From a bacterium HR40 (lineage in GTDB: Bacteria > Pseudomonadota > Alphaproteobacteria > Geminicoccales > Geminicoccaceae): a DNA stretch of 64,000 bases. The stretch is taken from contig BEIQ01000005.1 of the NCBI GenBank assembly GCA_002898275.1, forward strand, positions 62,001 through 126,000. The letters run 5' to 3'. Within the stretch, counting starts at the first letter, position 1; the number at the start of each line of letters is the position of its first letter. Shown piece after piece: positions 40,568 through 61,091 of the stretch. The notes beneath the pieces are model-generated. The model was not told the origin of the DNA. It made no database searches and saw nothing but the letters and a program-made list of their open reading frames with translations. Position numbers and translations under genes: made by a program.

Positions 40568-42019
40568 ATGAACGACCTGCGGGTCCTGTCGGTCGCCTCG
40601 GAATGCTCCCCTCTGGTGAGAACCGGTGGCCTTGGGGAGGTCGTCGGGAGCCTGCCGGCCGCGCTCGCCCGCCACGGCATCGCGATGCGGGTGCTGCTGC
40701 CGCGCTACCGGGGCCTCGGACCCGGGCTCGGCGACGTGCGGGAAGTGGCGCATTGGACCGATCTGCCGGGAGGAGAGGGACGCCTTTTGCGCGCCCGGCA
40801 CGCCTGCGGCCTCGAGCTCTACCTGCTCGACATGCCCCAGCTCTTCGACCGGCCGGGCGGACCCTATCGGGACGCCGACGGTCACGACCATCCCGACAAT
40901 GCCCTGCGCTTTGCCGCCCTCGGCATGGCGGCGGCACGGATAGCGCGGGAAGGGGTGGCGGGCTTTCCCGTCGACGTTCTCCACGCCCACGACTGGCAGG
41001 CGGGGCTCGCTCCGGCCTTCCTCGCCCTGGGCCCCGAGCCGCGACCCAAGAGCCTGTTCACCATCCACAATCTCGCCTATCAGGGATGGTTCGAGGCCGC
41101 TTGGCTGCCGCAGCTGCAGCTGCCGCCCGCCAGCTTTTCGATCCATGGGGTCGAGTACTATGGGGGGATCGGCTTTCTCAAGGCTGGGCTGTTCTACGCC
41201 GATCGCATCACCACGGTGAGTCCGACCTATGCCCGCGAGATCGCGACTCCTGCCCAGGGCATGGGGCTCGACGGCCTCCTGCGCGCACGGGCGGCGGATC
41301 TCGAGGGCATCCTGAACGGACTCGACACCACGGTCTGGGATCCGACTGCCGATCGCTTCCTCGCCGAGACCTATGATGCCGGCTGCCTCGAGTTGCGGCA
41401 GGAGAACCGGCGGGTGCTGGAACGGCGGTTCCGTCTCGAGGCCGACCACGGATCTCCGCTTTTTGCCGCCATCGGCCGGCTCGTTCATCAAAAGGGGTTC
41501 GATCTCCTGCTCGCCCGTCTGCCTTCTCTCGTCGCCCGCGGTGGCCGGTTGATCCTTCTCGCAAGTGGGGATCCCGAGCTCGAGGCGGCGTTCAAAGAGG
41601 CGGTTCGCCGCTATCCCGGGCAGGTCGGCTGCATCTTCGCCCATGACGAGGAGGTAGCGCACCAGATCCAAGGCGGGGCGGATGCGCTGCTCGTTCCCTC
41701 GCGCTTCGAGCCCTGCGGCCTCGTCCAGCTCGCTGCCCTACGCTATGGCTGTGTCCCGGTGGTGGCGCGCACGGGTGGGCTTGCCGACACGGTGGTGGAC
41801 GCTTCGCCCATGGCGCTTGCGCGCGACGCTGCGACCGGCATCCAGTTTTCGGCCGGTGACGAGTGGGGGCTCGAGATCGGCCTGCAGCGCGCCTTCGAGT
41901 TATGGCGGCGACCCGAGCTGTGGCAGCGGCTGCAGACGGTCGGAATGGCCGAGCCGGTGGGTTGGGAGCGTCCGGCTGCCGCCTACGCCCGCCTCTACCG
42001 CGAGCTCGTCGCCGCATAG
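40568..42019 (+). CDS. glgA: Glycogen synthase (ADP-glucose type, GT5)
   Basis: Transfers glucose from ADP-glucose to the growing alpha-1,4-glucan. The 483-aa protein has SVASECSPLVRTGGLGEVVGSLP at the N-terminus, HAHDWQAGL, TIHNLAYQG, SRFEPCGLVQL and ARTGGLADTV, all GT5 hallmarks. The N-terminal K-T-G-G-L nucleotide motif reads R-T-G-G-L, with Arg replacing the usual lysine. Length is normal. It overlaps the convergent GT4 gene by 25 bp. Confidence 0.94.
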   Translation: MNDLRVLSVASECSPLVRTGGLGEVVGSLPAALARHGIAMRVLLPRYRGLGPGLGDVREVAHWTDLPGGEGRLLRARHACGLELYLLDMPQLFDRPGGPYRDADGHDHPDNALRFAALGMAAARIAREGVAGFPVDVLHAHDWQAGLAPAFLALGPEPRPKSLFTIHNLAYQGWFEAAWLPQLQLPPASFSIHGVEYYGGIGFLKAGLFYADRITTVSPTYAREIATPAQGMGLDGLLRARAADLEGILNGLDTTVWDPTADRFLAETYDAGCLELRQENRRVLERRFRLEADHGSPLFAAIGRLVHQKGFDLLLARLPSLVARGGRLILLASGDPELEAAFKEAVRRYPGQVGCIFAHDEEVAHQIQGGADALLVPSRFEPCGLVQLAALRYGCVPVVARTGGLADTVVDASPMALARDAATGIQFSAGDEWGLEIGLQRAFELWRRPELWQRLQTVGMAEPVGWERPAAAYARLYRELVAA

Positions 42020-43206
42020 AAGGCGAGGCAGGCCCGGGCATAGGCCCGCCAGTCGCCGAGCTCGGCAGCGAGACCGGCCGCCCGGCGGGCCAGGGCGGCA
42101 CGGGCTGCAGGATCGGCGAGCAGGCGATCGAGCACGGCGGCGAGTCCGTCGACATCCTCCGGTTCCACCAGTGCCACCCGGTCCGCTACCGGTGGTTCGG
42201 CAAACACACCGATCCGGCTCGCCACGATCGCCTTGCCATAGGAGGCGGCGAGGGCGAGGGCACCCGAACCGTCGATCTCCCGATAGGGAAAGACCACGAG
42301 ATCGGCCTGCCGCAAAAGCCCATCGAGCCGCTCGTCCGGCACATAGTCGAGCTCGAAACGGAAGCGGTCTCGGGCCCCGGCGGCTTGGACGCGCGCGAGG
42401 AGGGGGGCGAGATCGAAATAGGGCCGGCCGGCGAGGGTGAGGGTGAAGAGACGACCGCGGGCGACCAGTCGCAAGGCCGCCTCGACCAGCACATCGACCC
42501 CCTTATAGGGCTTGATCGCGCCAAAAAAGAGGATGTGCGGGGGACCGTCCGCCTTGCCGGTTGCCGCCAGGAGTCCCGGGGCGAGGGCCAGCGGCGGATG
42601 CGGCAGGAGCAGGATGCGACGGCGCTCGATCCCGAGCCGCGAGAGATGGTCCGTGGTCTTCTCGGTGTGGGCAATGAAGCCATCGAACAGGGCGAGCAGC
42701 TCCCTGCGGCCGACTGCCTGCAAGAGGCGGACGAACCGTCCCGCCACCACCTCGACACTGTGGGCGAGCAGATCGGCATTGTGGACGGTGAGGAAGAGGC
42801 GGACCCGTGACCGCAGGCGGGAGAGGAGGGGGCGATCGAGCAGGGGCAGGAGCAGCCACTGCACATGCAGGACACCGATCCCGGTGCCGGCGATGAGGCG
42901 CGCGAGCCGGAGATAGCCGAAGAGATGTTCGAGACCCTTGAGGGCGCGACGGGCCTGCGAGGGATGCCAACCCACCGCGCCGCGCTCGCCGAGACGGTAG
43001 AAGAGGGGGTGGAAGATCAAGGGTTCGCCTGCGAGCCGTTCGTAGGGTCTGAGGGGGCGGCCGGCGAGATGGACCTCGGCTCCCTCAGCGGCGAGGCCGC
43101 GGGCGAAGTGGATGTCGAAGGGCAGGGTGAAGAGCGAGGGATCGAGGAGGAGGATCGGGGGGTGGGGCATGGGGGCGAGGGGGGAGGGGGGCGCTTGCGG
43201 GGTCAC
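41995..43206 (-). CDS. Glycosyltransferase family 4 protein
   Basis: A 403-aa GT-B enzyme. The C-terminal half has the GT4 pattern ILFFGAIKPYKGVDVLVEA, FELDYVPDERL, ADLVVFPYREIDGSGALALAASYGKAIVAS with the E-x7-E-like donor site, and LVEPEDVDGLA. It would add a sugar from a nucleotide donor at the cytoplasmic membrane face. GTG 43206 overlaps the sulfotransferase stop as GTGA and has GAGG 8 nt upstream; ATG 43170 is an alternative. It is the last gene of a three-gene operon. Confidence 0.88.
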   Translation of the reverse strand: MTPQAPPSPLAPMPHPPILLLDPSLFTLPFDIHFARGLAAEGAEVHLAGRPLRPYERLAGEPLIFHPLFYRLGERGAVGWHPSQARRALKGLEHLFGYLRLARLIAGTGIGVLHVQWLLLPLLDRPLLSRLRSRVRLFLTVHNADLLAHSVEVVAGRFVRLLQAVGRRELLALFDGFIAHTEKTTDHLSRLGIERRRILLLPHPPLALAPGLLAATGKADGPPHILFFGAIKPYKGVDVLVEAALRLVARGRLFTLTLAGRPYFDLAPLLARVQAAGARDRFRFELDYVPDERLDGLLRQADLVVFPYREIDGSGALALAASYGKAIVASRIGVFAEPPVADRVALVEPEDVDGLAAVLDRLLADPAARAALARRAAGLAAELGDWRAYARACLAFYAATSSR

Positions 43207-44111
43207 GCCGGGTTCCTCACCGTCCGTTCCGGCGCTGCCGTCGCGGCGGTGGAGAGCCAGGGCGGGGTATGGCCGAGCAATTGGGCGAGCCGCTGTTGGT
43301 CTGCGGCGAAGAACTGGCGCATGGTCTCGCGCAGCGCCGGATCGGGCAAGGGATAGCGGGAGCGGCTGGCGAGGCGGGCGAGACCCTCGAGGATCCCGAG
43401 CCCTGTCGGGGGGAGCGGCAGAGCGCGGCGCACCCCGTGCAGGATTCGGAAGAGGCGGGCCACGGCCGGGGAAGCGAAGGTGCCGCCGACATTCTCCGCC
43501 GCGAAGGTGGTGCGTCCGTCGTCGGGAACACCGAGAAAGCGCAGGGTCTCGAGATAGACCGCCCGGGGGTCGCGGCGCAGATCGTCCGAAAACAGCACGA
43601 GCACCCGCTCCCGCGGCACATGGGTGAAGAGGAAGGCGAGATGTTCGCCGAGCAGACACGCCCGCCGATAGTCGAGGTTCACCGAATAGCCGGGTTCGTC
43701 CGGCGACCACGAGGCGCAGCGTTCCCAGGCTTCGGCGAAGGACATGGCCGTCTCTCGCCCGGAACGGAGGTTCTGATGGTAGAGGGAGACGGCCATGTCC
43801 ACGGGATCGCGCAGCAGGACGATGTAGCGCGGTTTGCCGGAGCGTGCCTCGATGGCCGGGATGGCGACGCGCGATAGCAGGTAGGTAGCGGAGGCCTCGC
43901 CCACCGCCAGATGCTGGGCTGTGGCGCCGGCAAAGAGACGGGCATAGGCTTCGGCATCCCCGATCCGCGAGATGATCAGATCGGTGTTGTAGAAATTGGG
44001 TTCCTTGATGTGGGGCATATAGATCGCCGGATGCCGACGCAGCCACGCGGCGAGAGTGGTGGTGCCGCATTTGGGCGCGCCGATGATGAAGAAGTCGGGC
44101 TCGCGAATCAC
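43203..44111 (-). CDS. Sulfotransferase, third copy (heparan-type)
   Basis: A 302-aa sulfotransferase with the PAPS loop FFIIGAPKCGTTTLAAWL near residue 9, typical of the heparan-sulfate/NodH-like group. IKEPNFY, VLLRDPVDMAVSLYHQ (the 3'-phosphate site) and FLGVPDD follow. It differs from the two Sulfotransfer_1-like copies at 16527 and 18331. It starts with GTG 44111, overlapping the GT39 stop, and ends overlapping the GT4 start, so it sits between two glycosyltransferases. Sulfation of a glycan intermediate is the most economical reading. Confidence 0.88.
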   Translation of the reverse strand: MIREPDFFIIGAPKCGTTTLAAWLRRHPAIYMPHIKEPNFYNTDLIISRIGDAEAYARLFAGATAQHLAVGEASATYLLSRVAIPAIEARSGKPRYIVLLRDPVDMAVSLYHQNLRSGRETAMSFAEAWERCASWSPDEPGYSVNLDYRRACLLGEHLAFLFTHVPRERVLVLFSDDLRRDPRAVYLETLRFLGVPDDGRTTFAAENVGGTFASPAVARLFRILHGVRRALPLPPTGLGILEGLARLASRSRYPLPDPALRETMRQFFAADQQRLAQLLGHTPPWLSTAATAAPERTVRNPA

Positions 44112-45781
44112 GGCCGGAACACCGGAAGGTCGGTACAACGCGAGGGATCGAGCCTGGGTTCGGCGTGCTGCCAGATCCAGGCGAGGGCGTGGGCCCGTTC
44201 GGGAAGCGACAGCCGCTCGGCCCGGGTCGCCAGCAAGGCGAGGACCTCCGGGCCGAGCTGATGCGGGACGCCGAGGTGATAGGCAGGTGCCAGCATCAAG
44301 CCCGAGGGATAGCAGTCGAGAACCCGCTCGAGAGCCTCGAGACTGCCGATCACCGGCCGGCCGGTACGCGGGTCGCGGCCGAAATCGCGTCGCTCGGTGG
44401 CCGGCAGCTCGTTCAGCTTGGAGCGGCTGTGGACGATGTCGGCACGGCCCAGGAAATAGAGCGGAGCCAGTTCTTCGGTGGCGACCACCACATCGACCCG
44501 GGCGATCCACGGTGCCAGGGCCGAGGCGGCAAGCCGCCAGTCGGTCGAGGGTTTCTCCGGCGGCACCGGGATGTCGGCGATGACGGTCGCGGTCCGCAGC
44601 CAGAAGGGGTTGACCGCGACCAGCACACCGAGGGCGCAGGCGACGACGAAGGAGGCGAGACGCGCCGCCTGCAGGTTCAGGAAGGCGAATGTCCCGGTCA
44701 TTGCCCGGCGCAGCTCGGCGGTCCAGGCGCGCAGCGCCGGAAACAGAGCGGCAAGGCCGATGCCCCAGATCACGAACAGCAGCGGCTGGGCATAGGCGAT
44801 GTAGCGCAGACTCTTGGGACCGGCGAAGGAGTTGAGGAGAAAGGCGATGGCGAAGACCACCGTAGCGAGACTGCCGAGCAGCGGGCTGCGAATCCAGGCG
44901 AGGAGGGCGAGGAGACCGGTGGCCGGCCACAGGGTCGGATAGAGCAACACGTACCAGAAGTGGTAGAACCAGAAGGCGTCGCGAGTTTCGGCGTTGAACA
45001 CCGGCACCGCACGGTACTGCTGCCAGAGGGTGGCGATGAGACCGAGCGCCCAGGCTGTCGCGAGGAGGACCAGAGCGGCCGCCGCGACGACCGCTAGGAG
45101 GAGGATTCGCCCCCTGTGCGAGAGCGGTGTCGCGAGTCGCCACAGCAGGATCGGTGCCACCCAACTGGCGAGGGCGAGGAGGCCCAAGAGGGTGGTGGGC
45201 TGGAGGAGGGTCGCGAGGACGACGAGGGCGGCGGCGAGGAGGAGTCGCAACAACCCCCTCGGCCATGGAGCGAGGGTGCGGAAGAAGTCGTGCACCAGCC
45301 ACAGGGCGAGGATGAAGGCCAGGGTCTGCAGGGCGTAGAAACGGCAGAACTGGGCGATCAGGACGGCAAAGGGGGAAATCGCGTAGAGACCGGCGGCAAG
45401 CCCGGCGGCGAGGTCTCCCGCCTCGCGTCGTACCCAGACGAACAACACGAGGACGAGGAGGGAGGTGGCGAGCACCGACGGCAGGCGAGCAGTCGCCAGG
45501 CCTTCGCCGAACAGGCGAAAGCTCTGGGCGACCAGCCAGGTGAAGAGGAAGCCGCGCGGATAGAGACCCTCGCCAATACGCGGTTCGCCCGTCTCCAGCA
45601 GGCCGCGAGCGGCGAGGATGTGGTAGAGCTCGTCGGGATGCGGTGCCCGATCGAGATGCAGGAGATAGAGGAGCAGAGCGGCGAGCGGCAACAGAGACGG
45701 CAGAACGAGCCGCGACCATCCGCGGGAAGAAAGCGGCGGCGCCACCGCGACCCAACGCTCAAGCTCGGAGGACATGGGCAT
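44108..45781 (-). CDS. GT39/PMT-like membrane glycosyltransferase
   Basis: A 557-aa integral membrane protein with about 10-12 hydrophobic segments and the catalytic Asp-Glu in the first periplasmic loop (HLDRAPHPDELYH, D50-E51). These are typical of GT-C enzymes that use polyprenyl-phosphate sugars. The C-terminal ~150 residues form a soluble domain containing VVATEELAPLYFLGR. ATG 45781 has GAGAGAG upstream. First gene of the GT39-sulfotransferase-GT4 operon, transcribed divergently from the flippase gene. Confidence 0.83.
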   Translation of the reverse strand: MPMSSELERWVAVAPPLSSRGWSRLVLPSLLPLAALLLYLLHLDRAPHPDELYHILAARGLLETGEPRIGEGLYPRGFLFTWLVAQSFRLFGEGLATARLPSVLATSLLVLVLFVWVRREAGDLAAGLAAGLYAISPFAVLIAQFCRFYALQTLAFILALWLVHDFFRTLAPWPRGLLRLLLAAALVVLATLLQPTTLLGLLALASWVAPILLWRLATPLSHRGRILLLAVVAAAALVLLATAWALGLIATLWQQYRAVPVFNAETRDAFWFYHFWYVLLYPTLWPATGLLALLAWIRSPLLGSLATVVFAIAFLLNSFAGPKSLRYIAYAQPLLFVIWGIGLAALFPALRAWTAELRRAMTGTFAFLNLQAARLASFVVACALGVLVAVNPFWLRTATVIADIPVPPEKPSTDWRLAASALAPWIARVDVVVATEELAPLYFLGRADIVHSRSKLNELPATERRDFGRDPRTGRPVIGSLEALERVLDCYPSGLMLAPAYHLGVPHQLGPEVLALLATRAERLSLPERAHALAWIWQHAEPRLDPSRCTDLPVFRP

Positions 45782-46060
45782 GGACTCTCTCGCTCGCGGG
45801 GTACTGGCGGCCGCCTCTGTGGCAGCGCAGCTCTTCGGTCGGAGCGAGGCCGACTGCCGCCCCGTTTGCCACGATGCGCGCCACCTCGGTGGACGGGACC
45901 GTACCGTGAGGCGAGGATTGGCCTATGTCGCACCGGGTTAGGGGTCAAGTCGATTGCCGCGCCGAACATCCACGGCTATGGCCGCGCTGCGGCGGCCTGA
46001 GCCGACACTAGGGTGGCTCGCGGGCAGGTCCGCATGCGGCCTGCGCGACAGAGGTCGATC

Positions 46061-47407
46061 ATGCGACGATCGGGAGTGCCTTCCCGTTTCCTTGGATGGC
46101 TCAGGCGGCTGGTCGGTGCCGGGGAGGTCAGTCGCCGCCTCCTGACCATGGTCTTCGGCGGCGTCGGCGGCCAGCTCGTCCTGGTCCTCGCCGCACCGCT
46201 GCTGACCCGTCTCTACGATCCGGCGGCCTTCGGCATCTTCGGGGTCATCAGCGGGATCGCGCTGGTGCTCGGGCCTCTCGCGCATGGGGGGTTCAACCAG
46301 GCGGTCGTGGTGGTGCGCAGGCAGGGCGAGGCCCTCAATCTGCTCGCGCTCTGCGCCCTCTCGGCGGTCTTCTGGACCGTTCTGACGAGCGGTGTGTTGC
46401 TGCTCGCCGGAGAGACCATGGCGCGCGCCCTCGATCTCGTGGCCGCGCCGCAGCTCCTCTGGTTGCTCCCCCTCGAGATCCTGATCCTCGCCCTCGCCCT
46501 CGCCCTCGAATTCTGGGTCTTGCGACACAACCGGTTCGGCTTGGCGGCGATGGCTCTCGGCCTGCGCTCGGTAGGCCAGCTCGCCGTGCAGCTGATCTCC
46601 TTCCCGCTCGCCGCCGGAGCCGGACTCGTCCTGGGCTATGTGGCGGGGGATCTGGTGCGCCTCCTGTGTCTGTTGCCCCTCGATCGGGAAGAGCTGAAGC
46701 GTCTGCGGAAACGAGTGAGGTGGCGACGGATCCTGGCGATGGCCCGTCGACACAGGGCCTATCTCGTTTTCAACACACCGGCGGTGTTCTTGCAGAATCT
46801 CAACCGGATGCTGCCGATGACCTGCCTCGCCTTGTTCTACGGGGCGACGGCAGCCGGCCTCTACGCCTTGGTGCAGAAGATCCTCATGCTGCCGGCGCAG
46901 CTCGTCGCCAATGCGGCGGCCAAGGTGGCGGTGCTGGAATTGGTCCAGCGCGAACGCCGGCATCATCCGACCTTGGTGCGCAAGATCGTCGTCACCTCCC
47001 TGCTCTGGAACAGCCTGGCCTTTCTTCCAGTCCTGCTGTTCGGCGGCCCGATCTTCGCCATGGTGTTCGGCGAGTCTTGGCGAGAGGCCGGTCTCTATGC
47101 CGCGTGGCTGGTGCCGTTCGCCGTGCTCCGGTTCGCCAATCTCGCTCTCTCCCAGACCCTCAACATCTACGCCCGTCAGGATGTGAATTTGCTCTGGTCA
47201 TCGACGGCCTTGCTGTCCTCGGCTGTCGTGCTCGGACTGGCGGTAGCCCTGGGATGGGAGCCCATCGTTCTGGTCGCCGTGCACGGGCTCGTCGCAGCTG
47301 CAGTGCAGGGCGGGCACCTGCTGGCGACCTGGCGCGTGGTGACCGGCGGTCGGGAGATCGAGGCGATATTGGGGATGGAAGACAGCAGCGGGAAGAAGGG
47401 GACATGA
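46061..47407 (+). CDS. Polysaccharide flippase (Wzx/MATE-like)
   Basis: A 448-aa membrane protein with around 12 transmembrane helices. The start, LLTMVFGGVGGQLVLVLAAPLLTRLYDPAAFGIFG, matches the RfbX/Wzx polysaccharide transporter family, which moves lipid-linked repeat units across the inner membrane. ATG 46061 has GAGG 6 nt upstream. Its stop overlaps the next gene's start as ATGA, coupling it to the asparagine-synthase-like protein. With the Wzy-type protein (54130) and Wzz-kinase (62096), a Wzx/Wzy pathway is nearly complete. Confidence 0.88.
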   Translation: MRRSGVPSRFLGWLRRLVGAGEVSRRLLTMVFGGVGGQLVLVLAAPLLTRLYDPAAFGIFGVISGIALVLGPLAHGGFNQAVVVVRRQGEALNLLALCALSAVFWTVLTSGVLLLAGETMARALDLVAAPQLLWLLPLEILILALALALEFWVLRHNRFGLAAMALGLRSVGQLAVQLISFPLAAGAGLVLGYVAGDLVRLLCLLPLDREELKRLRKRVRWRRILAMARRHRAYLVFNTPAVFLQNLNRMLPMTCLALFYGATAAGLYALVQKILMLPAQLVANAAAKVAVLELVQRERRHHPTLVRKIVVTSLLWNSLAFLPVLLFGGPIFAMVFGESWREAGLYAAWLVPFAVLRFANLALSQTLNIYARQDVNLLWSSTALLSSAVVLGLAVALGWEPIVLVAVHGLVAAAVQGGHLLATWRVVTGGREIEAILGMEDSSGKKGT

Positions 47408-49074
47408 CGACAGCGACCCATTCTCCCGGGGACGTCGCCCTCGCTCCGCACACGATGCCGGAGGCGGTCGCCACGCGGTTTCGCTTGCCCCATGTCGAGA
47501 CCTCCCGGTTCATCGCCTTCTGGTTGGGGCTGCCGATGCGAACGGGAGCGGAGGATTCGAGCGCAGCGGTGGCGGCGGCTCTGGCGGACGTCGACGATGT
47601 TGCGGACCGCGGGATCGCGGATCTGGACGGGATGTTCGTCCTTCTCGTCTACGACAAGCGCGGCAAGACCTGGTCGGTTTATGGCGATTCCAATGGAATC
47701 CTGCCGTTGTATTATGACGATATCGGATGTTCGACGTCGATCCTCGGCATGCTGTCGGATCGGACATACACGATAGATGATTTGGACCGTCGGGCGGTGG
47801 TCGATTTCTATCTCCACGGGGTGGTGCTTTCGCGCCGGACGCTGTTGCGTTCCGTTCATCGTCTCCCGCGACGCACCGTCCTCGTCCTGAGGAGGGAGGG
47901 AGGGGCAGCGGTGCGACCGCTGCAGGACGTGGCGAGGGCGGCGGAGGACTCCGAGACCTGCGTCGAGCGGTACTTCGCCGACCATGCCCGGCTGCTCGGC
48001 CAGCGACGGGTCACCGTGCTGCTGACGGGCGGCAGCGACAGCCGCTGGCTGTTTTGCCTGGCACGGCATCATCTCGCGCGCTTTCGGACGGTGATCGCCG
48101 GCGAGCCGCATTCGGCCGAGGTCGCGGTTGCCGAAAAGGTGGCGGCGACGGCGGAGGTGAGCCTCGATGTCGTTCCGGAGACAGTCGCGAACATCGACGA
48201 AGACCTCGAGACGATGTTTCTCGATGGGGACGGTGTCGTCAATCTCGTTCAGCATCATCGGACGTGGCAGATGGCTTGCCACGAGAGTGCGCTAGGTCAA
48301 GATGTCTTGATCCATGGTGGGGGAGGTGAATTTTTCCGCGATACGTTTAGTTACCAGGATATACCGATATACGTCGGTAAACCTAACATCGAAAAATTCT
48401 ATCGCTTGAGGCTTTCGCTATCGTCTGCCGTCCCGCCTTTCACCGAACCGGTATACGTTCGAGAGATCAGGAGAGAGGTACTGGATAGGATGCACGGCAT
48501 AGCCAGTGCCGACAAGCACAGGACCTACAACGAGATCTACCTGATCATGAAGGCGCCCTGGATATTCGGCGGCGTTTACGCCATGTACCGGCGCAGAGGG
48601 CTCCACGTCTTTGCCCCGTTCCTCGACGGGAGGAATGTCGCCGTCGCCCTCGCCCGACCGATTGCGCAAAAGATGCTCCATCGTTGGCATCGGCGTGTTG
48701 TCTCCCGCCGATGCCCGCAACTTGCGCGTATTCCCATGACCACCGGCATGACCCTCTCGGATGCCCCGCTCGACATGCTCGTCGATGCCGCGGCCTATAT
48801 GCGCGACGTCTCGCTTCGGGTCGTCAACAAGCTCGCCCGCCGGTGGTGGGGACGGTCGCCATTCGCGATGGGAGCCAGCGCCGTGGGCCGCCATCCCGAT
48901 CTCGCCGAGGCCGTGCGGGGCGCCCGGGTCACGGAACGGGCCCTCGGGGCGCTCGCCGCGGCAGGAATCCTGCACCGTGACCAGGCGCGGGAACGAGCTC
49001 TGGCGGTCGAGGAATTGGGGCGGCTCGTCACCGTGGGACTGCTGGTCGAGCGGTTGACCGTCGGCACGCCGTGA
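47404..49074 (+). CDS. Asparagine-synthase-like protein lacking the glutaminase cysteine
   Basis: A 556-aa protein. Residues about 70-110 (LDGMFVLLVYDKRGKTWSVYGDSNGILPLYY) match the class II glutaminase core of AsnB. The protein begins M-T-T, so the essential Cys at position 2 is missing and glutaminase activity is unlikely. The synthase half has the pyrophosphatase loop LLTGGSDSR (S211-x-S213), where AsnB usually has SGGxDS. It probably adenylates a carboxylate for amide formation on a sugar or peptide, using free ammonia or an amine. Part of it (48300-48560) is AT-richer than flanking DNA. Coupled to the flippase. Confidence 0.8.
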   Translation: MTTATHSPGDVALAPHTMPEAVATRFRLPHVETSRFIAFWLGLPMRTGAEDSSAAVAAALADVDDVADRGIADLDGMFVLLVYDKRGKTWSVYGDSNGILPLYYDDIGCSTSILGMLSDRTYTIDDLDRRAVVDFYLHGVVLSRRTLLRSVHRLPRRTVLVLRREGGAAVRPLQDVARAAEDSETCVERYFADHARLLGQRRVTVLLTGGSDSRWLFCLARHHLARFRTVIAGEPHSAEVAVAEKVAATAEVSLDVVPETVANIDEDLETMFLDGDGVVNLVQHHRTWQMACHESALGQDVLIHGGGGEFFRDTFSYQDIPIYVGKPNIEKFYRLRLSLSSAVPPFTEPVYVREIRREVLDRMHGIASADKHRTYNEIYLIMKAPWIFGGVYAMYRRRGLHVFAPFLDGRNVAVALARPIAQKMLHRWHRRVVSRRCPQLARIPMTTGMTLSDAPLDMLVDAAAYMRDVSLRVVNKLARRWWGRSPFAMGASAVGRHPDLAEAVRGARVTERALGALAAAGILHRDQARERALAVEELGRLVTVGLLVERLTVGTP

Positions 49075-49117: not shown

Positions 49118-52100
49118 TCATGGAGCGAAGGGACCGACGTCGCTGCGGCCGAGCTTGACTGGCGTATAGGGCGGGATGTCCGAAGTCGGACGCACGACAG
49201 TGCCGGTGTGCAGCTCGTATTGAATGGCACCGGTGTGGGCCTCGATCACGCAATCCTTGGCAGGGTAGGTCTCCGTCGCCACCCATTTTTTGCCGACGAC
49301 CACCGATCCCTGGTTGTGCGCTACCCGTACCCGCAACGCCCGCCCGCGTTCATCGTCCGAGATGTTGGCCTCGCGATTGCCGGCCATGAGGAATATACCT
49401 TGCGAATTGACGAAACGGTTGTTCGCAATGATATGGTCGGAATCTCTCACCGTGATGTATCTCCAGTCTTCGAACCAGTTGCCGACGACCTTGCTCTCCC
49501 AACCACATCTGAGCTCGAGGAAACCCTGGCTGTTGATGAATGTGTTGTACTGGAACGTCGTCTTCGTCCCCTTCGTCGCCACCGATGCGCCGAGGCTGTC
49601 CAAGAAATTCTCGAAACGGTTGTATTCGATGAGCGCATAGGTCGGGATGTGCGACCTCAACCCGGTTGTCGTCACGACCAGTGCCGTGTTGAATCCGGAC
49701 CAGTAGTCGTTGGGATTGGGTTTGGTCCCGAAATCGTGGATCCAGTTGCGATCGATCCGAGCATAGGTGTGCGTCCGATCGCTTCTCGTGTCCACCACGA
49801 TGGCCCGTCGGACGGTTCCCGCAGGCTCGGAGCCATCGAACGGCCGCACCGTCACATCGCAGTGATCGAGGCGCCCTCGCGTCCCGTCATAGCGGAACTG
49901 AATGACCGCATTGCGCGTGCTGTCGCGGAAGGTGCAGCGGGTCACCCGATTGTCGGAGCCGGCGATCACCACCCCGCTGTCAGGGCCCGCAAAGGCCAGG
50001 CCATAGAGCACCCCGCAAGAGCCGGAAAGGGTGAAGCTGCCGCTGAATGTGGCGCCCAGCAGGGATTGCGCCCGGACGACGATCGGTCGGTCAGCGGTCG
50101 CCTGGGCCTGCAGCTCGAAGTTCCCGGCATAGAGACCGTTCGCCAGTCGGATGAGATCGCCCGGTCGCGCCGCGGCGAGGGCCGCTTGCAGCTGCGCCGC
50201 GGTCGCCACCTCGACCGTCCGCAGCGGTGGAGGCAGCTCGTTCGCCGGAGCCGGAGTGACTTGCACCCGCACGCGTCCCGATGCCACATGGCCAGCGGCG
50301 TCGCGGATCGTGAACGGGACGACATCCTCCCCGACGAAGCCGGCGAACGGCGCATAGCGCAGGCGGTTGTCGACGATCGAGGCGACACCGTGCGTCGGGA
50401 CGCCGACGCCGGTCAGGCGCAGCGGCAACCCTTCGGGGTCGTGAGCGGCCGCGACCACGTCGATATCGACGGTGAGGCCGGTCGGAGTCGCGGCTTCGAG
50501 GGTGCGGGCGAGGGGCGGAAAATCGGCCATCTCCGGCCGTTCCTCCTCGCCCGCCACATAGAGCCGCCACGGGGTATGGACATTGTCGGCCTCGAGGGCG
50601 AGGCGGGTGGCGGACGGCACCGAGGCGGACAGGCGCACCGTATCGATGAGTCCCACCCACGAGCGCGCCGTGTTGAGACGGCCGAGACCCACGCTCAGAG
50701 GCTCTCCCACAACCATCCGGGTCCGTCCGGTAGCCGCCACTCCCGGCTGTCCACCCGTGCCCGTGTCGAGCCCCACCCAGCTTGGCGCGGCGGCTCGCCC
50801 GTCGATCCACAGGGTCGGGAGCTCGCCACTGCGCCAGGAGCCCGCCACGACCATCGGGGTCGGACGTTGTGCATCCGCCGGTCCCTCCACCTGCGCGCTG
50901 CCGGCGGTGGTGAGGACGCTGAACTTGATGGTCTTGGGCGCCTGTCCGAAGTAGCCGGGGTTGGTGTAGAGCAAGGAAAGGCCGAGGCTGCCCACGGATG
51001 CCGTCGGGCTGCCTTGCTGGAGGATCCGTGCCGGGCGGGGGCTATCGACGAGGGTCGCGTCCGCCTGGACGATCGCACTCACACAGATGGCGTCGAGGCC
51101 ATCGAGGAAAGTGGCGTCGGCGAGGCGTAGATCTCCCGTACCGTCGAACCTCCCCGCCGGACCCACCAGTTCCGCCGCGGTCACCCCGCTCGCCACGAGA
51201 TCCCGCCCATGGCCACTGCGATCCCGGCCGGTCACGGGATCCCATACGGCGAGATAGTCCTGCCAAGTGGCGGCAGGATCCGCCTCGCTCGCAGCGAGTT
51301 CGGGTTTGCCATAGTAAAGGAAGAGGGTGAGGTTCCGGGCGATGTCCCAGCTCGGAATGCGGACCCAGGCGACGAGCGTTCCGGTCGCGGGATCGTAATG
51401 CTCGAGGTCGTGGGGGAGCCGGGTGCCGTCCGCATCCTCGAAGCGCAGATCGAACCCTTGCGGACTCTCCACTTGGCCGCCGCGGGCGACGTCCTTGAGC
51501 CAGTCTCCCTGTTCGCGCACGAGCAGCACGAAACCCGAGACCGTCTCGTGCGCCGTTTGCCGGGCCGGCAGCAGGATGCGCCGGCGGCGGCGGAAACCAT
51601 TGGCGAAGGTGGCCATCGGCGGGCTCGCCGGCGTGACGGCGATCCGCACGGTGCCGGTGGCGACCCCCCCGCGGCCGTCACTGAGGGTGAAGGTGAAGGA
51701 ATCCTCGCCGGTGAATCCGGCATCGGGGGTATAGAGGAGGCGACCGTCGGCCTCGAGGGCAAGGCGACCGTGGCGCGGCAGGGAGAAGTGCGTCAGGCGG
51801 AGCGGGTCGCCATCGGGATCGCTCGCCCGCAGGCGCGGATCGAAGAGGAGCGGTGTGTCCTGCGGCGTGGAAAGCGCGTCATCGTTGGCCACCGGCGGCA
51901 GATTGGGCCGGTTGACCGTCACCCGCACGGTGCCGGTCGCCAATCCCCCGCGGCTATCGCTGACGGTGAAAGCGAAGGAGTCCTCGCCGACGAACCCGGC
52001 ACGAGGGGTGTAGGTGAGGGTGCGATCGGCGTTCACCACGAGCCGGCCGTGGGCGGGAACGCTCAGGGCCTCGAGGCGCAGCGGATCGCCGTCGGGATCC

Positions 52101-52726
52101 CGGGCACAGGCGAGGGGGGCGAAGAGCGCTGGAGTGTCGGTTGTCACCTCGAGGGTGGCGTCGTCCACCACCGGCGGCTGGTTGGCGGTACCGACCCGCA
52201 CCGTCACCGTGCCCGTCGCCACCTCGCCACGGCCATCGCCGACCGTGTAGGTGAAGCGGTCGATGCCGGAAAAGCCGGCGGGCGGGCGATAGCGGATGCG
52301 GTCGGGAGCGAGGAAAGTGGCCGTACCGTGCGCCGGCGCGCCGATGGCGAGCAGCTGCAGGGGATCGCCATCGGGATCCCCATCGTTGGCCAGCACCGGG
52401 ATGTCGATGGAGGAGCCGTCGGAGCTCGCCGCTTCGTCGTCGCGGGCCACAGGTGGCGCATTGGGGGCGAGCACCGAGATGGTGACGGTGGCGGTGGCCG
52501 TAGCCCCTCCGGCGTCGCGGACGGTGTAGGTGAAGGAATCGACGCCGACAAAGCCGGGTGCCGGGGTGTAGGTGAGGGTGGAATCGGGATTGGCAACCAC
52601 TCTCCCCCGCGCCGGCTGGGTGAAGCCGTCGAGGACGAGCCCCGCGCCCGTGTCATTGGCGAGGGGGGCGATGATCACGGCGGTGTCGACGGGGGTGAGG
52701 GCGATGTCGGGAGCGGCAATGGGCAA
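49118..52726 (-). CDS. Large multidomain protein with PL6-type (chondroitinase-B/alginate lyase) domain
   Basis: A 1202-aa protein. Residues about 1-380 hold four cadherin/Ig-like repeats (each ending TLTYTP.AGFVGVDSFTYTV or similar, separated by DPDGDPL). Then come a DUF2341-like segment (about 385-490), a LamG-like segment (about 500-720) and a fifth Ig-like repeat (about 730-840). A C-terminal parallel beta-helix (850-1200) begins VATAAQLQAALAAARPGDLIRLANG as in PL6 lyases. It would cleave a uronic-acid polysaccharide. No classical signal peptide is seen; the start is TTG 52726 with GGGAGA upstream. Repeats and calcium-type DPDGD motifs suggest type I secretion. Confidence 0.82.
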   Translation of the reverse strand: MPIAAPDIALTPVDTAVIIAPLANDTGAGLVLDGFTQPARGRVVANPDSTLTYTPAPGFVGVDSFTYTVRDAGGATATATVTISVLAPNAPPVARDDEAASSDGSSIDIPVLANDGDPDGDPLQLLAIGAPAHGTATFLAPDRIRYRPPAGFSGIDRFTYTVGDGRGEVATGTVTVRVGTANQPPVVDDATLEVTTDTPALFAPLACARDPDGDPLRLEALSVPAHGRLVVNADRTLTYTPRAGFVGEDSFAFTVSDSRGGLATGTVRVTVNRPNLPPVANDDALSTPQDTPLLFDPRLRASDPDGDPLRLTHFSLPRHGRLALEADGRLLYTPDAGFTGEDSFTFTLSDGRGGVATGTVRIAVTPASPPMATFANGFRRRRRILLPARQTAHETVSGFVLLVREQGDWLKDVARGGQVESPQGFDLRFEDADGTRLPHDLEHYDPATGTLVAWVRIPSWDIARNLTLFLYYGKPELAASEADPAATWQDYLAVWDPVTGRDRSGHGRDLVASGVTAAELVGPAGRFDGTGDLRLADATFLDGLDAICVSAIVQADATLVDSPRPARILQQGSPTASVGSLGLSLLYTNPGYFGQAPKTIKFSVLTTAGSAQVEGPADAQRPTPMVVAGSWRSGELPTLWIDGRAAAPSWVGLDTGTGGQPGVAATGRTRMVVGEPLSVGLGRLNTARSWVGLIDTVRLSASVPSATRLALEADNVHTPWRLYVAGEEERPEMADFPPLARTLEAATPTGLTVDIDVVAAAHDPEGLPLRLTGVGVPTHGVASIVDNRLRYAPFAGFVGEDVVPFTIRDAAGHVASGRVRVQVTPAPANELPPPLRTVEVATAAQLQAALAAARPGDLIRLANGLYAGNFELQAQATADRPIVVRAQSLLGATFSGSFTLSGSCGVLYGLAFAGPDSGVVIAGSDNRVTRCTFRDSTRNAVIQFRYDGTRGRLDHCDVTVRPFDGSEPAGTVRRAIVVDTRSDRTHTYARIDRNWIHDFGTKPNPNDYWSGFNTALVVTTTGLRSHIPTYALIEYNRFENFLDSLGASVATKGTKTTFQYNTFINSQGFLELRCGWESKVVGNWFEDWRYITVRDSDHIIANNRFVNSQGIFLMAGNREANISDDERGRALRVRVAHNQGSVVVGKKWVATETYPAKDCVIEAHTGAIQYELHTGTVVRPTSDIPPYTPVKLGRSDVGPFAP

Positions 52727-52912
52727 GGCGGATCTCCCGGATGTCTTAGGTCCACATTCCTACTATAGGTTTTTCAACCGAAGGTCAAGCGATGCCGGGC
52801 GATGCGGCAAGCGGCGGTGGAAAAGAGGAGAAGGGGAGGGGTCGGCCGAGGGAATAAGGAGAGAAGCAGCCCGTCTTGGCTGTGGATCCTGCGACCGAAA
52901 GGCGGGTTGCCG

Positions 52913-53908
52913 ATGACGGTTCTCAACCCAGACAAGCGGCGCGCGCGGAGTGGGGCCATCCTCGCGCGCGCGGCCATGGCCTCGGCGCTCTTGGTTGCGG
53001 CCCATGCCCCGGCTGCCACCCGAGCGGCATCGACGGACCCGTCGGCCGTGCCGTGGAATTCCGGCGTCTCCTGTTTTTACCAGTCGGGTTTCGACCTCGC
53101 GGCCTTCGCCGCTTGGCGGGGCAGTCCGGTGCGGGCGCTGCACGGCTGGGCCGGCAAGGATCTGGCGGCCGCACCGGCCTATTTCGCGGGCGGCTCCTAT
53201 GGTCAGTTCCTGCGCCGCAATCCGGCGGTGATCGCCATCAGCACGCCGCTGCTGCCCGCTGGCGGCACCCTCGGGCAGTGCGCAGCTGGCGCCTACGACT
53301 CCCTCTTCCGGCAGATCGGCGAGATCATCGCCCGTCGGGGCCGCCCGGACACGATCTTGCGCCTCGGCTGGGAGATGAACCTCCGATGGGCTTCGTGGAG
53401 TGCGGTGCCCGATCCGGAAGCCTATAAGGCCTGTTTTCGTCGGGCCGTTCAGGCCATCCGTTCCACCCTTCCCGGAGCGCGCATCGATTGGACCTTGGGC
53501 CGCGGCAACAAGATGACGGACTGGACCCTCGCCTATCCGGGCGACGACGTCGTCGATATCATCGGCCTGTCCTACTACGATCGAGCCCCGTCCATCAAAA
53601 CCGAAGCCGATTGGGACAAATATGCCCGGATGTCGCCGACGGCACGGACCACGGGGATCCTCACCGTGATCGATTTCGCCCGTGCTCGCGGCAAAAAGGT
53701 AGCTGTGGGCGAATGGGCCGTTTCCGACGGCATATACGACGGTTTCGACAATCCCCTATTCGTGACGAAAATGCACGAGACATTCATGGCGAACAAAGAT
53801 ATCATCGCATACGAGACATATTACAATTGCGGGAGCAATGGTGTCTACAAGATCTATCCAGAATTCCACAATCCCAAGGCCGCTGCGGCCTATCGTCAGC
53901 TTTGGTGA
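52913..53908 (+). CDS. Secreted GH26-like glycoside hydrolase
   Basis: A 331-aa exported hydrolase with a signal peptide (about 1-39). LRLGWEMNLRW supplies the acid/base glutamate E154 followed by Asn, and VAVGEWAV supplies the nucleophile E267. DIIGLSYYD lies between. This matches GH26-type (beta-mannanase/xylanase-like) enzymes, here used in an exopolysaccharide locus to trim or release polymer. It is divergent from the PL6-type lyase. Its 3' end is AT-richer than the start. ATG 52913 is chosen because the signal peptide begins there. Confidence 0.83.
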   Translation: MTVLNPDKRRARSGAILARAAMASALLVAAHAPAATRAASTDPSAVPWNSGVSCFYQSGFDLAAFAAWRGSPVRALHGWAGKDLAAAPAYFAGGSYGQFLRRNPAVIAISTPLLPAGGTLGQCAAGAYDSLFRQIGEIIARRGRPDTILRLGWEMNLRWASWSAVPDPEAYKACFRRAVQAIRSTLPGARIDWTLGRGNKMTDWTLAYPGDDVVDIIGLSYYDRAPSIKTEADWDKYARMSPTARTTGILTVIDFARARGKKVAVGEWAVSDGIYDGFDNPLFVTKMHETFMANKDIIAYETYYNCGSNGVYKIYPEFHNPKAAAAYRQLW

Positions 53909-54129: not shown

Positions 54130-55512
54130 CTACGAGCGGACGAATTTCGGCAGCACCGGCAGCGCCGAGCCACTCTCGGCGCGCCGCCGTCGGGAGGTGT
54201 CCAGCGAAGATCGTCGCGCCGGCGAGGGGGACTCGAGCGGTGGACAGGTCATGAGGGCGATGGACATCATGAGGACATCGTGGCGGATCAGATCCTGACT
54301 GCCCATACTGGCGACGAATGCAGTGAAGAACACTGCACCGACGATCATCATGACAGGATCGGTGGATAGGCGCCGAACCGACATATTGCGCAACCCCGTC
54401 CACACGAACAAACCGAAGAATATGAGGCCGATCACGCCATAGTTCACGAGAATCTCGAGTATGATATTGTGCGGATGTGCCCCGGGCATTTCGCCTCGTC
54501 CGTCGACCATGTTGAAGCCAGCCATCCCGAGCCCGATCCACGGCGAAGAGTACCAGTGCTCCAGGGCCGATGTGAAATACTGCACGCGATCCCTTCGCAG
54601 GCTTATCTCGGGATTTTCGAGATAGCGCAGATAGGACAACGCGCGATTGAGCGTCGTCAGCTCGACGCCAGCGTTCACGATGATGACGAGGCCGATCGCG
54701 ACGGCGACGACGACGACGAAGATGATGCCCTGCGATGTCCACAGGCGCGGACGGCCGCGAGCCGATGGCAGGTTCATCACCAGCATGACGAACAGGCAGC
54801 CCCCGAGGGCACTCAGCAGGGCGCCCCGGCTGCCGCCGACGAGCAGGAACAGGAAGCCGACGGCGCAGAGAGACGCCGAGAGCAGCTGCTTGGCCGACCA
54901 CAGGCGCGAGAGCGACGCGATTCCGAAGAGGACCACCGATCCGAACGCCACCGAATATCCGACACGATTGTACGCTCGGGAATTGGTCGTGCCCTCTATG
55001 GCAGTGGCCATAGTGTACTTGAAATTGCCATGAAAATACGAAATCCAAAGGCCAGCAAACGACAGCAGTACGGCCATGATCGCGAACACGATAATCATGC
55101 GGACGACACGCGTCCGATCCCGCGCGACGACGAATGACGTGGCGACGATGAACCACAGCAGGAACGTCAGTTCGTACATGAGGATCTGCTTGGCGAGCAC
55201 CCGCGACGGTGACCAGCCCATGCTGGCGATCGTCCAGGCCACGAACATCAAATAGGCGGATGCGGTCGCCATGCCGGGAAGATAGAGGCCGTGCCGCCAG
55301 ACGATGGCGGCGCCGATCGGTACGGCGATCGCCGCCGGGACGATGGCGAGGGGAAAGGGGGGATGCCAGGGGATGAAGAATTGCACGGCATCGGCGAAGG
55401 CGGACAGAATCACCAAGCACTCGAAGCTGAACAGGGCCGCCAGGATCTGCCGTGACCAATAGAGGCGCCCGGGCGCCGACGTCACGGGTGAGACGAAGGA
55501 CGGTCTCGACAT
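54130..55512 (-). CDS. O-antigen polymerase/ligase family membrane protein (Wzy-type)
   Basis: A 460-aa membrane protein with about 11-12 helices. The Wzy_C-type periplasmic loop contains R-rich residues and GLGMAGFNMVDG...GAHPHNIILEILVNYGVIG, the H-N-x-x-L-E signature of the O-antigen ligase/polymerase family. It would polymerise repeat units flipped by Wzx. The C-terminal 35 residues are polar and basic. Part of the gene (54280-55270) is AT-richer than its neighbours. ATG 55512 follows GGGGAGAG. Confidence 0.87.
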   Translation of the reverse strand: MSRPSFVSPVTSAPGRLYWSRQILAALFSFECLVILSAFADAVQFFIPWHPPFPLAIVPAAIAVPIGAAIVWRHGLYLPGMATASAYLMFVAWTIASMGWSPSRVLAKQILMYELTFLLWFIVATSFVVARDRTRVVRMIIVFAIMAVLLSFAGLWISYFHGNFKYTMATAIEGTTNSRAYNRVGYSVAFGSVVLFGIASLSRLWSAKQLLSASLCAVGFLFLLVGGSRGALLSALGGCLFVMLVMNLPSARGRPRLWTSQGIIFVVVVAVAIGLVIIVNAGVELTTLNRALSYLRYLENPEISLRRDRVQYFTSALEHWYSSPWIGLGMAGFNMVDGRGEMPGAHPHNIILEILVNYGVIGLIFFGLFVWTGLRNMSVRRLSTDPVMMIVGAVFFTAFVASMGSQDLIRHDVLMMSIALMTCPPLESPSPARRSSLDTSRRRRAESGSALPVLPKFVRS

Positions 55513-55755
55513 GCGACTCTCCCCACGGCGGCACCGGATGGCCACCGGCGGTGGACCATGGCGTTCGCGGTCGTCGGGTGCCGACGGCCGAGTGCCGGAC
55601 CGCGCACCCGAAGGAGGCGAGCTGCGGCGGCGACGGATGGCCGACCACCGTCGAGGCCGGAGACCGCGTAGGATCCCCCTCCCGCTGAGCCGAGGGCGAG
55701 CGGCGAGGAGGGGGGCGGGATCTGCGGCCACGGCACCCGAACGTGCCCCTCGAGC

Positions 55756-58176
55756 CTATTGCACATAGCCGAGTCCGCGCAGTTGTTCGAGGGTCGTCGG
55801 CTCGATCACCGTACCTCCGGCCTCGCCCCCGGTCACCTGCCGCCATAGCCTGATGTTCGCCTCGTGCAGGGCAGCCAGGGTGCGGCGATGGAGCCAGCGC
55901 GGGAAGAGACCGACGAGACTCGTCCCATGGATCCCGTCTTCTCCAGCCGCGCGCAGATGGGTGAACAGCAGCCCGAAGCCGTCATCGAAGCCGAACAGCC
56001 AGTCGCGCTTGAAGATCCAGGGCGAACCCAGAAGCTGGAGTCCGCCGCGGACGAGGGAGCCGCAAGAGGCACAGGGATCGGATCGCCGCATCGCTGTCGG
56101 TTCCTCCGACACCACCACCCGCCGCTGCCAGAACCCGAGGTCCTCGCCCCGCATCAACGGCCACAGGGAATCGCCGTGCAACAAGAGCCCGGAACGCTCG
56201 ACCCCGGCGGCCTCGAGGAGGGTGGGGACGAGATCGACGAGCCCGACGGGCTCGTCGATCCGCTTGGCCTGCGGCAGTCCCGCCGGCCACACCAGCATGA
56301 GCGGCACCCGGGTGACCCAGCCATAGCCGGGCGGCCGGTGGTCCCACAGCCGGTTACCGAGCAGTCCCCGCTCACCCAGGAATTCCCCGTGGTCCGCGGT
56401 CAGCACGAAAAGGGTGTCATGGGCCAGTCCGCGCTCTTCGAGCATCGCGAAGAAGCGCTCGAGGATCCGGTCATTGTGGCGGATCTCGGCCTCGTAGCGC
56501 TGCCGGCGGCCCTCGATCGTGGGCCGTTCCACCCATTCGGGATCGAGCACCGGATCGCGCCCGACGGCGGTGCCTTCCTCCGCCTGCCGCAGATCCTCGG
56601 GTGGATCGTAGGGCGCATGGGGGTCGAGCACGTGCAGGTAGAGGAAGAGATTGCGGTCGCGATGGCGTTCCAGCCAGTCGAACACCTGGGCATCGATGGT
56701 CACCTTCTCGATGCGTCCCTGCACGGCTGGCCCGGTGCGCATGGAATCGAAGCCCTGGTGGAGGCCAGCGTAGGGTCCGGCATTGCCGTTCTGCACGAAC
56801 GCCCCCGTGACATAGCCTTGGGCGCGCAGGATCTCGGCGAGGGTGAGGTGGCGTTCGGCGAGCACGTCCGAGAAGTGCCAGAGCCCGGTGGCGCTCGGAT
56901 AGAGTCCGGTCATCAAGGAGGCGATCGATGGTCGGGTCTTGGTCGCCTGGGAGAAGGCGTGGGCGAACACCACCGCCTGCGCGGCGAGCCGTTCCTTGAA
57001 AGGCGTGGTCGGCCGGTCGTGACCGTAGAGGGAGAGGGAAGCCGCCCGCTCGGCATCCTCGACCACCATCACGATCCGCAGCGGCCGGCGCGGTGCCGAG
57101 GACAACAGAGGGCTCGCCCACAGCGCGACATTCTCCGGCGGCCCTGACACCTCGAGGAGGAGTCGACCCTTCTGTCCGGCGAATGCCGCGAGATCGATCC
57201 GGATCTCTTGCCAGCGCGCACTCTCCCCCACCTCCTGGCGCCACAGTTCGACCGGCTCGCCGCCCTCGGGCCGAAAGCGCAGGGCGAACCCCACCGGGTG
57301 GTCGGGGCGCAGCACGGCCACCGCGGCATCAAAGCGCGGAGCCTGCTGGGGGATGGTCACCTCCCAGGCGAGACTCTGGTCGGGCCACATGAAGAGGACC
57401 GGCCGGGTATCCTCGGCGAGGCTCTCCGATTGGCTGCCGCGCAGCGCGTGGACGTAGCGGGCGGTGGGGCCGAGGATACGGATCCAGTCGATCTCGACCA
57501 CCGCCCCCGGCACATCTGCCGGCTGCACGAGCAGCCGCCGGATATGCTCGCCCGGGGCGAGGCCGCGCTTGAGCACGTTGCGGGCATCGATCACATAGGT
57601 GTGGAATTCACCGGTGCCGCGGAACGGCAAGTCGATGCGGTCGCGCCACAGGGACCGGCTGCGCCGATCGCTGCCCTCGCCCTGCCAGCCGAGGCGGAAA
57701 TGGGTGCCGGCGGTGGTGCGCATGCGGATCCACAGCTGGCCGATCTCGTCGCGCGGCAGATCGAGCCCGTCGAGCACGAGATAACCGCCAGGCGAGGCCG
57801 TCATTCGCATGACCCCGTCGGCCCGCTGCGGCGGTGCCATCCCCTCCGGGATCCAGGCGGGCTCGTCGCCTCCCTCGAATTCGAGGGCGAAGAGGGTCGA
57901 GACCTCGTCGCCAGGTGCGCGCTCCGGCGCCCGTTCCACCTCGGCCTCGGCGAGCGCCAGATCGAAGCGCAGAAACGGCCCGTTGAAGGGATTTTCCGGC
58001 AGGGTGGCGAGGGCGTGCTCCGGATATTCCGGGCGGGCGCGGGCGGCGAGGCTGCGCGCGCGTTCGACCACGCGGTTGGCGTCGTCGGCAAAGCCGAGCA
58101 GATCGAACCGCCAACCGTCGATCAGCTGGAGGAGCAGGAAGAGGGCGAAGAGAAGTAGCAGGAAACGTCGGATCAT
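55756..58176 (-). CDS. Sulfatase-like alkaline-phosphatase-superfamily protein, Thr at nucleophile position
   Basis: An 806-aa protein. It has an N-terminal hydrophobic anchor (residues 3-20), a beta-rich region (about 60-360) and a C-terminal sulfatase-type domain (365-806). The domain has metal residues around VVEDAERAASLSLYGHD and TADHGEFLGERG. At the formylglycine motif the sequence is TRPSIASLMTG: Thr414 replaces the modifiable Cys/Ser, and the motif Arg is Ile418. A threonine nucleophile is typical of phosphoethanolamine/phosphoglycerol transferases and phosphodiesterases, so true sulfatase activity is doubtful. ATG 58176. It forms an operon with the next gene upstream. Confidence 0.82.
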   Translation of the reverse strand: MIRRFLLLLFALFLLLQLIDGWRFDLLGFADDANRVVERARSLAARARPEYPEHALATLPENPFNGPFLRFDLALAEAEVERAPERAPGDEVSTLFALEFEGGDEPAWIPEGMAPPQRADGVMRMTASPGGYLVLDGLDLPRDEIGQLWIRMRTTAGTHFRLGWQGEGSDRRSRSLWRDRIDLPFRGTGEFHTYVIDARNVLKRGLAPGEHIRRLLVQPADVPGAVVEIDWIRILGPTARYVHALRGSQSESLAEDTRPVLFMWPDQSLAWEVTIPQQAPRFDAAVAVLRPDHPVGFALRFRPEGGEPVELWRQEVGESARWQEIRIDLAAFAGQKGRLLLEVSGPPENVALWASPLLSSAPRRPLRIVMVVEDAERAASLSLYGHDRPTTPFKERLAAQAVVFAHAFSQATKTRPSIASLMTGLYPSATGLWHFSDVLAERHLTLAEILRAQGYVTGAFVQNGNAGPYAGLHQGFDSMRTGPAVQGRIEKVTIDAQVFDWLERHRDRNLFLYLHVLDPHAPYDPPEDLRQAEEGTAVGRDPVLDPEWVERPTIEGRRQRYEAEIRHNDRILERFFAMLEERGLAHDTLFVLTADHGEFLGERGLLGNRLWDHRPPGYGWVTRVPLMLVWPAGLPQAKRIDEPVGLVDLVPTLLEAAGVERSGLLLHGDSLWPLMRGEDLGFWQRRVVVSEEPTAMRRSDPCASCGSLVRGGLQLLGSPWIFKRDWLFGFDDGFGLLFTHLRAAGEDGIHGTSLVGLFPRWLHRRTLAALHEANIRLWRQVTGGEAGGTVIEPTTLEQLRGLGYVQ

Positions 58177-58207
58177 TCGCCACGACTCCCATCCCGCGAT
58201 CGGCACC

Positions 58208-60916: not shown

Positions 60917-61091
60917 GAGCGGGTAGGATCCGGCGGGAGGGTCGGCAACGGACGAAGGAACCGCCGGCATTATCAGGTCGGGTGGACGGTCGGCAAGGCG
61001 CTACGGTCCGGAGGAGCCGGCGGACGGGCACTGGCGTGCATGCCAGCGCACATCGTGGCAGGAGGGAGAGGATCCTTCGGGGGAGGAGGGA

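Follow-up and report, generated by a model that had tools for sequence, protein, structure and literature searches.

Polysaccharide locus and the AsnB-like gene

The window analyzed herein, a 64,000-nucleotide stretch (C5:62001-126000) of the 2.9-Mb genome of bacterium HR40, carries the genes and features listed below, among which the gene at 47404-49074 encodes a protein of the asparagine synthetase B (AsnB) superfamily, hereafter the AsnB-like protein.

41995-43182 (-): GT4-type glycosyltransferase (PF13692, 5.6e-17)
43203-44096 (-): sulfotransferase (PF00685, 1.2e-13)
44108-45781 (-): GT-C (PMT_2-like) membrane protein (PF13231, 1.9e-5, just under the cut-off)
46013-47407 (+): Wzx-type flippase (PF13440, 1.1e-11), with a 4-nt overlap with the AsnB-like gene
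47404-49074 (+): AsnB-superfamily protein with a truncated glutaminase half and no Cys2 (556 aa, ATG start)
48025-48045 (+): PP-loop TGGSDS (residues 208-213, 48025-48042) and family-specific Arg214, by alignment
48313-48342 (+): motif HGGGGEFFRD (residues 304-313), with Gly306 in place of acidic residue 348 and Glu309 for Glu352, by alignment
48739-48741 (+): Thr446, in place of Lys449
49118-52726 (-): protein with Big_9/cadherin-like tandem repeats, DUF2341 and a C-terminal PL6 (chondroitinase B/alginate lyase) beta-helix (PF14592, 1.1e-13)
52802-53908 (+): glycoside hydrolase family 26-like protein (PF02156, 9.4e-7)
54130-55731 (-): Wzy/O-antigen-ligase-type polymerase (PF04932, 2.5e-16)
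55756-58173 (-): sulfatase-family protein (PF00884, 4.8e-45)
62096-64000 (+): Wzz/tyrosine-kinase chain-length protein (PF02706, 2.4e-14), running off the window

At 55756-60970 (-), two large sulfatase/phosphodiesterase-family proteins are encoded in tandem within the locus.

The start of the AsnB-like gene and the stop of the Wzx gene share the four nucleotides ATGA, and AAGGGG lies just 5' of this overlap. An earlier note on this DNA had reported that the product lacks the Cys2 nucleophile of the glutaminase, and had named an upstream start restoring that residue as grounds for rejecting this view. The reading frame is indeed open 5' as far as 46012; however, no Cys follows any of the six upstream ATG/GTG/TTG codons or the three later ones listed, and the stretch 5' of the start codes for Wzx in another frame. 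The protein scored 28.7 bits with PF00733 (Asn_synthase), over the Pfam gathering cut-off of 21, and its match to PF13537 (GATase_7) covered only profile positions 64-105 of 123 and fell under the respective cut-off. None of the NCBIfam models was reached at its cut-off, the scores being 44.9 of 267.1 bits for TIGR01536, 34.4 of 816.9 for TIGR03108, 30.8 of 570.1 for TIGR03104 and 24.5 of 525 for NF033535 (lasso peptide cyclase). The AsnB-like protein is a member of the superfamily that stands outside every named family tested. Since two canonical AsnBs bearing Cys2 are encoded elsewhere in the genome (C2:461 kb and C5:30 kb), the gene is not needed for asparagine.

Judging from its gene content, the locus probably makes a sulfated, uronic-acid-containing slime exopolysaccharide of the Wzx/Wzy type. 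About 6 kb past the window (C5:132-135 kb; L031:6197-9093) lie a gene for a fused CysN-APS kinase and a CysD-like gene with a PAPS_reduct domain, which would be fitting for a dedicated PAPS supply. The gene following the AsnB-like gene encodes a 1,202-aa protein, and its PL6 domain was aligned with those of the sister loci (alignment A3, comprising five PL6 domains: window, L007, two of L008, and L009), which matched solved PL6 lyase structures with a best E value of 1.7e-29. The predicted catalytic pair Lys222/Arg243 is kept in all five domains, and its spacing of 21 residues equals that of the catalytic Lys-249/Arg-270 in BcelPL6 (PMC6879350). On these sequence grounds, the 49118-52726 product is a PL6 uronate lyase, a beta-helix with putative catalytic Lys and Arg. 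As PL6 lyases act on sugars bearing a C6 carboxylate (PMC6879350), uronic acid is very probably a constituent of the polymer. In addition, the GT-C counterpart in each of three sister loci (L062, L063 and L064) has a UDP-glucose/GDP-mannose dehydrogenase next to it, and a nucleotide-sugar dehydrogenase lies near the AsnB-like gene in L020 and L056, although such dehydrogenases are near-universal, occurring in 14/14 genomes but also in 13/14 control genomes. A heparinase II/III protein is encoded in L008. In some sister loci, the Big_9/cadherin-like repeats lack PL6 and are found next to, or fused with, GH26-like or Laminin_G domains. The C-terminal enzyme of the repeat protein thus seems, from its domain composition, to be swapped between genomes.

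Active-site residues and predicted fold

The window protein and 11 further relatives (12-row alignment, median pairwise identity 21%) were compared with three canonical AsnBs on the basis of the E. coli AsnB active-site residue list in PMC4659947, which includes C1, R49, N74, E76 and D98. The 1ct9 numbering was counted from the alignment, by which the Asp of PFLD is D405; the positions of the Lys449 and Tyr357 equivalents were taken from the sequence alignment rather than from superposed coordinates, and Arg387, which aligned only loosely, was left out. C1, R49, N74, E76 and D98 are gone in 12/12 relatives, the window protein included, the N-terminal Cys2 being absent from it and from the 11 others, whereas the canonical three retain them, save for a Cys that one of them has at the E76 position.

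The ATP loop [ST]GGxDSR is intact in all 12 relatives, in each of which the PP-loop is followed by Arg, in contrast to Ser in 3/3 canonical AsnBs. The TGGSDS loop, which the earlier note had taken as altered, is present at residues 208-213; it differs, however, from a normal PP-loop only in the replacement of S by T, and is therefore no sign of change by itself. The invariant columns of the alignment are only G76, D95, G209, G210, D212, S213, R214, A243 and D276, five of the nine falling within the ATP loop, and this invariance in 12/12 at 21% median identity argues for selection on ATP use.

Gly347 and Glu352 are likewise retained in 11/11 relatives reaching those columns, Glu309 being the counterpart of either D351 or E352 owing to a one-residue alignment gap near residue 351. 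The acidic position 348 is replaced by Gly, Ala or Ser in 11/11 relatives reaching the column, and Lys449, found in 3/3 canonical AsnBs, is present in 0/11 relatives with sequence at its column. The Tyr357 column holds Tyr in 2/11 relatives and Phe in 5/11, and reads T/A/N/N in the window protein (Thr) and its three nearest full-length relatives. Beyond the residue list used above, Lys449 and residue 348 are also important in AsnB. With Lys449, acidic 348 (11/11) and Tyr357 (9/11) lost, ordinary amide chemistry is therefore unsafe to assume. In PesC, the corresponding Glu-Tyr pair matters, Y368F being inactive and E363A impaired (PMC13060819). Because it lacks the residues used by characterized relatives, the AsnB-like protein could plausibly make amides only in some non-standard way.

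A structural model built with AlphaFold2 from the 12-row alignment (pLDDT 86.9, pTM 0.89) displayed the two-domain AsnB/beta-lactam synthetase fold over residues 8-556 (Z 19-25). In VIA-align, the Z scores were 24.9 for TsnB9, 21.1 for AsnB, 20.8 for human ASNS, 20.5 for carbapenam synthetase and 20.1 for beta-lactam synthetase, followed by LarE as the next family (13.2) and other PP-loop enzymes at about 13; Foldseek ranked the same AsnB-group enzymes first. From these scores and the drop to LarE, the full two-domain AsnB fold is predicted to persist despite the truncated N-terminal half, in good agreement with the earlier note's claim that the synthase fold remains. A profile search of the PDB reached 1ct9 at 3.1e-5, and a single-sequence PDB search gave only weak matches (best E 0.13), none of them an AsnB enzyme.

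The AsnB-like protein thus shares with AsnB (1ct9, TIGR01536) the fold, the PP-loop and the Gly347 and Glu352 equivalents, but lacks Cys1, the glutamine site, Lys449, Tyr357 and acidic 348, and lies far under the equivalog cut-off. TsnB9 hydroxyamidotransferase (7ylz), an enzyme with a role in natural-product synthesis, is the best structural match, although the identity in the structural alignment is 13%. Beta-lactam and carbapenam synthetases (1m1z and 1q15), which join a carboxylate to an amine of the same molecule, resemble the model over the whole length (Z about 20), yet their structural identity is 12-15% and their dyad and Lys are not kept in the AsnB-like protein. The amide-forming lasso peptide cyclases, to which it had been likened, have in common with it the AsnB superfamily; the likeness does not extend to NF033535 (24.5 of 525 bits).

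Relatives and gene partners

The AsnB-like gene is found in 5/31 genomes of the order, with close relatives in 4/30 of the others, and its GT-C neighbor in 17/31; the gene is an accessory, dispensable part of the locus. One genome (G029) has one locus copy with it (L008) and one without it (L068). Single-sequence searches of the class (385 genomes, among them the own one) gave no further relatives, and those of genome contigs gave none, nor did the plasmid and phage records contain any match. Profile A1 searched against the genome contigs gave five loci, four already known from whole genomes and one of a Myxococcales MAG (L020), and profile searches found more divergent relatives in other proteobacterial families. 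In L007, the third-position GC of the AsnB-like gene is 0.56 vs 0.74-0.91 in its neighbors, which suggests, on compositional grounds, acquisition from elsewhere. A literature search of a partial collection, by title or abstract opening, returned no description of this family without glutaminase.

The coupling to Wzx put forward in the earlier note holds for the ATGA overlap in the window and for adjacency in L007, but is not conserved in L008 and L009, where the co-directional neighbor is GT-C; the consistent partners are GT-C and the beta-helix/PL6 protein. The GT-C relatives are 46-60% identical and occur in 4/4 AsnB-like loci of the family with flanking sequence. GT-C itself (44108-45781, -), the most constant locus member (17/31 genomes, up to 60% identity), is without a specific family assignment and is not specific to the AsnB-like gene. 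No conserved uronate-activating or amine-donating partner was seen beside the AsnB-like gene.

PF13229 or PF14592 was found within 1.5 kb of 8/14 AsnB-like genes vs 1/36 canonical AsnB genes, with a Fisher value of 4e-5 that overstates the significance because the compared genes are related; the association was seen in two separate groups, namely the Geminicoccaceae-like loci and those of G031, G069, G042 and G667. For PF13229 alone, the counts were 5/14 vs 1/35. The 14-gene set is without G003, whose contig stops within the gene, G253, whose frame is disrupted, G283, where the match is a canonical AsnB, and G159 and L020, and includes G192 despite its broken frame; the 36 canonical genes are 34, with one G003 gene out and two G192 pieces joined, plus the two of the own genome. 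The L037 neighbor ORF, counted as beta-helix, scored 38.4 bits with Beta_helix in the genome search, whereas Hmmscan found no Pfam family in it.

PL6 domains are present in 4/4 AsnB-like loci of the family with flanking sequence, but also in 2/5 inspected loci without the AsnB-like gene (L067 and L068), being absent in L062, L064 and L066; L063, L065, L069 and L070, where no repeat/PL6 protein was picked out, were not counted. A strict linkage was thus rejected, and PL6 is independent of the AsnB-like gene.

Possible function of the AsnB-like protein

Possibly, the gene product is an enzyme of an unusual kind for the decoration of acid groups in the polymer. The best explanation, which we hold as a tentative one, is that it is a divergent ATP-pyrophosphatase, a carboxylate-activating accessory enzyme for polymer uronic acids that is unable to use glutamine. 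What the analysis shows of this is the predicted fold, the intact ATP loop, the loss of the glutaminase, the locus context and the accessory distribution. Such an enzyme would bind Mg-ATP through [ST]GGxDSR and activate a carboxylate as an acyl-adenylate, most likely at C6 of a uronic acid carried by a precursor that is linked to a nucleotide or lipid and has not yet been flipped out of the cytoplasm. The acyl group would then be passed to an amine not freshly derived from glutamine, such as free ammonia, an amino acid or an amino sugar, and the family-specific arginines Arg214 and Arg312 could stand in for Lys449 in pyrophosphate handling. A masked carboxylate would also restrict cleavage by the neighboring PL6 lyase. 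Against this reading stand the replacement of Lys449 and acidic 348 in 11/11 relatives, the retention of Tyr357 in only 2/11, and the lack of a conserved uronate-activating or amine-donating partner. By analogy, PesC would also speak against a carboxylate-activating role, since the Tyr-to-Phe change in its dyad abolished activity and the window protein has Thr there.

The main rival, doubtful on balance, is a pseudoenzyme, an AsnB descendant that still binds ATP but is without catalytic activity and regulates polymer assembly or serves as its scaffold. This would fit the loss of Lys449, Tyr357 and acidic 348 in the window protein and the relatives closest to it, and the dispensability of the gene relative to GT-C (5/31 vs 17/31 genomes). 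A mere scaffold, however, need not retain Mg-ATP-PPi handling, and both the whole ATP loop and Glu352 have been retained in Geminicoccaceae-like genomes, in the Myxococcales MAG and in several further families of proteobacteria. As for amidation of a uronate, the proposal of the earlier note, the uronic-acid polymer is supported by the PL6 lyase and the L062, L063 and L064 dehydrogenases, whereas the amide formation is not. WbpS makes uronamides (PMC3684757 and PMC7468200), and a WbpS-like synthetase with free ammonia replacing glutamine would share with WbpS (O-antigen and XrtA loci) the superfamily, the polysaccharide locus and the likely uronate substrate; related PesC is moreover able to use ammonia (PMC13060819). 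We nevertheless regard this reading as improbable, because the catalytic residues differ, WbpS has been described as a glutamine amidotransferase, and the AsnB-like protein, which lacks a glutaminase, reaches only 34.4 of the 816.9 bits of TIGR03108, the family in which PMC7468200 places WbpS.

The family-specific Arg after the PP-loop, the altered active site and the sulfation genes of the locus would also suit a PP-loop enzyme of other chemistry, e.g., sulfur or phosphate transfer on the sulfated polymer; this too has a low probability, as the best matches of the predicted model all belong to the AsnB group, well above LarE-like enzymes. An ordinary asparagine synthetase with its glutaminase supplied elsewhere, though of the same superfamily, is close to refuted given the two canonical Cys2 AsnBs of the same genome, the TIGR01536 score (44.9 of 267.1 bits), the lost catalytic residues and the polysaccharide locus; the earlier note had likewise set the protein apart from such synthetases.

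Returning to the carboxylate-activating enzyme, a bolder form of it, which we consider rather unlikely, is that glutaminase-less AsnB relatives with the signature [ST]GGxDSR ... G[GAS]xGE(F/I)(F/Y)R form a separate clade, paired in Wzx/Wzy loci with beta-helix uronate lyases. Its members would modify polymer uronic acids in a new ATP-dependent manner, e.g., by coupling them to an amine or alcohol, using an active site unlike that of known amide synthetases, and would thereby set the cut sites of the co-encoded lyase. If active, the protein would be an AsnB-type enzyme working on polysaccharide carboxylates without glutamine or the usual catalytic residues; it would test the minimal requirement of the AsnB active site and would open a genetic route to the question of how bacteria tune sulfated polymers with uronates against their own lyases. 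The paralogous loci of G029, with and without the gene, are a natural comparison.

In the Myxococcales MAG (L020:9986-17022), the relative adjoins genes resembling by eye those of cyanophycin synthetase and cyanophycinase, and the nucleotide-sugar dehydrogenase lies close to it.
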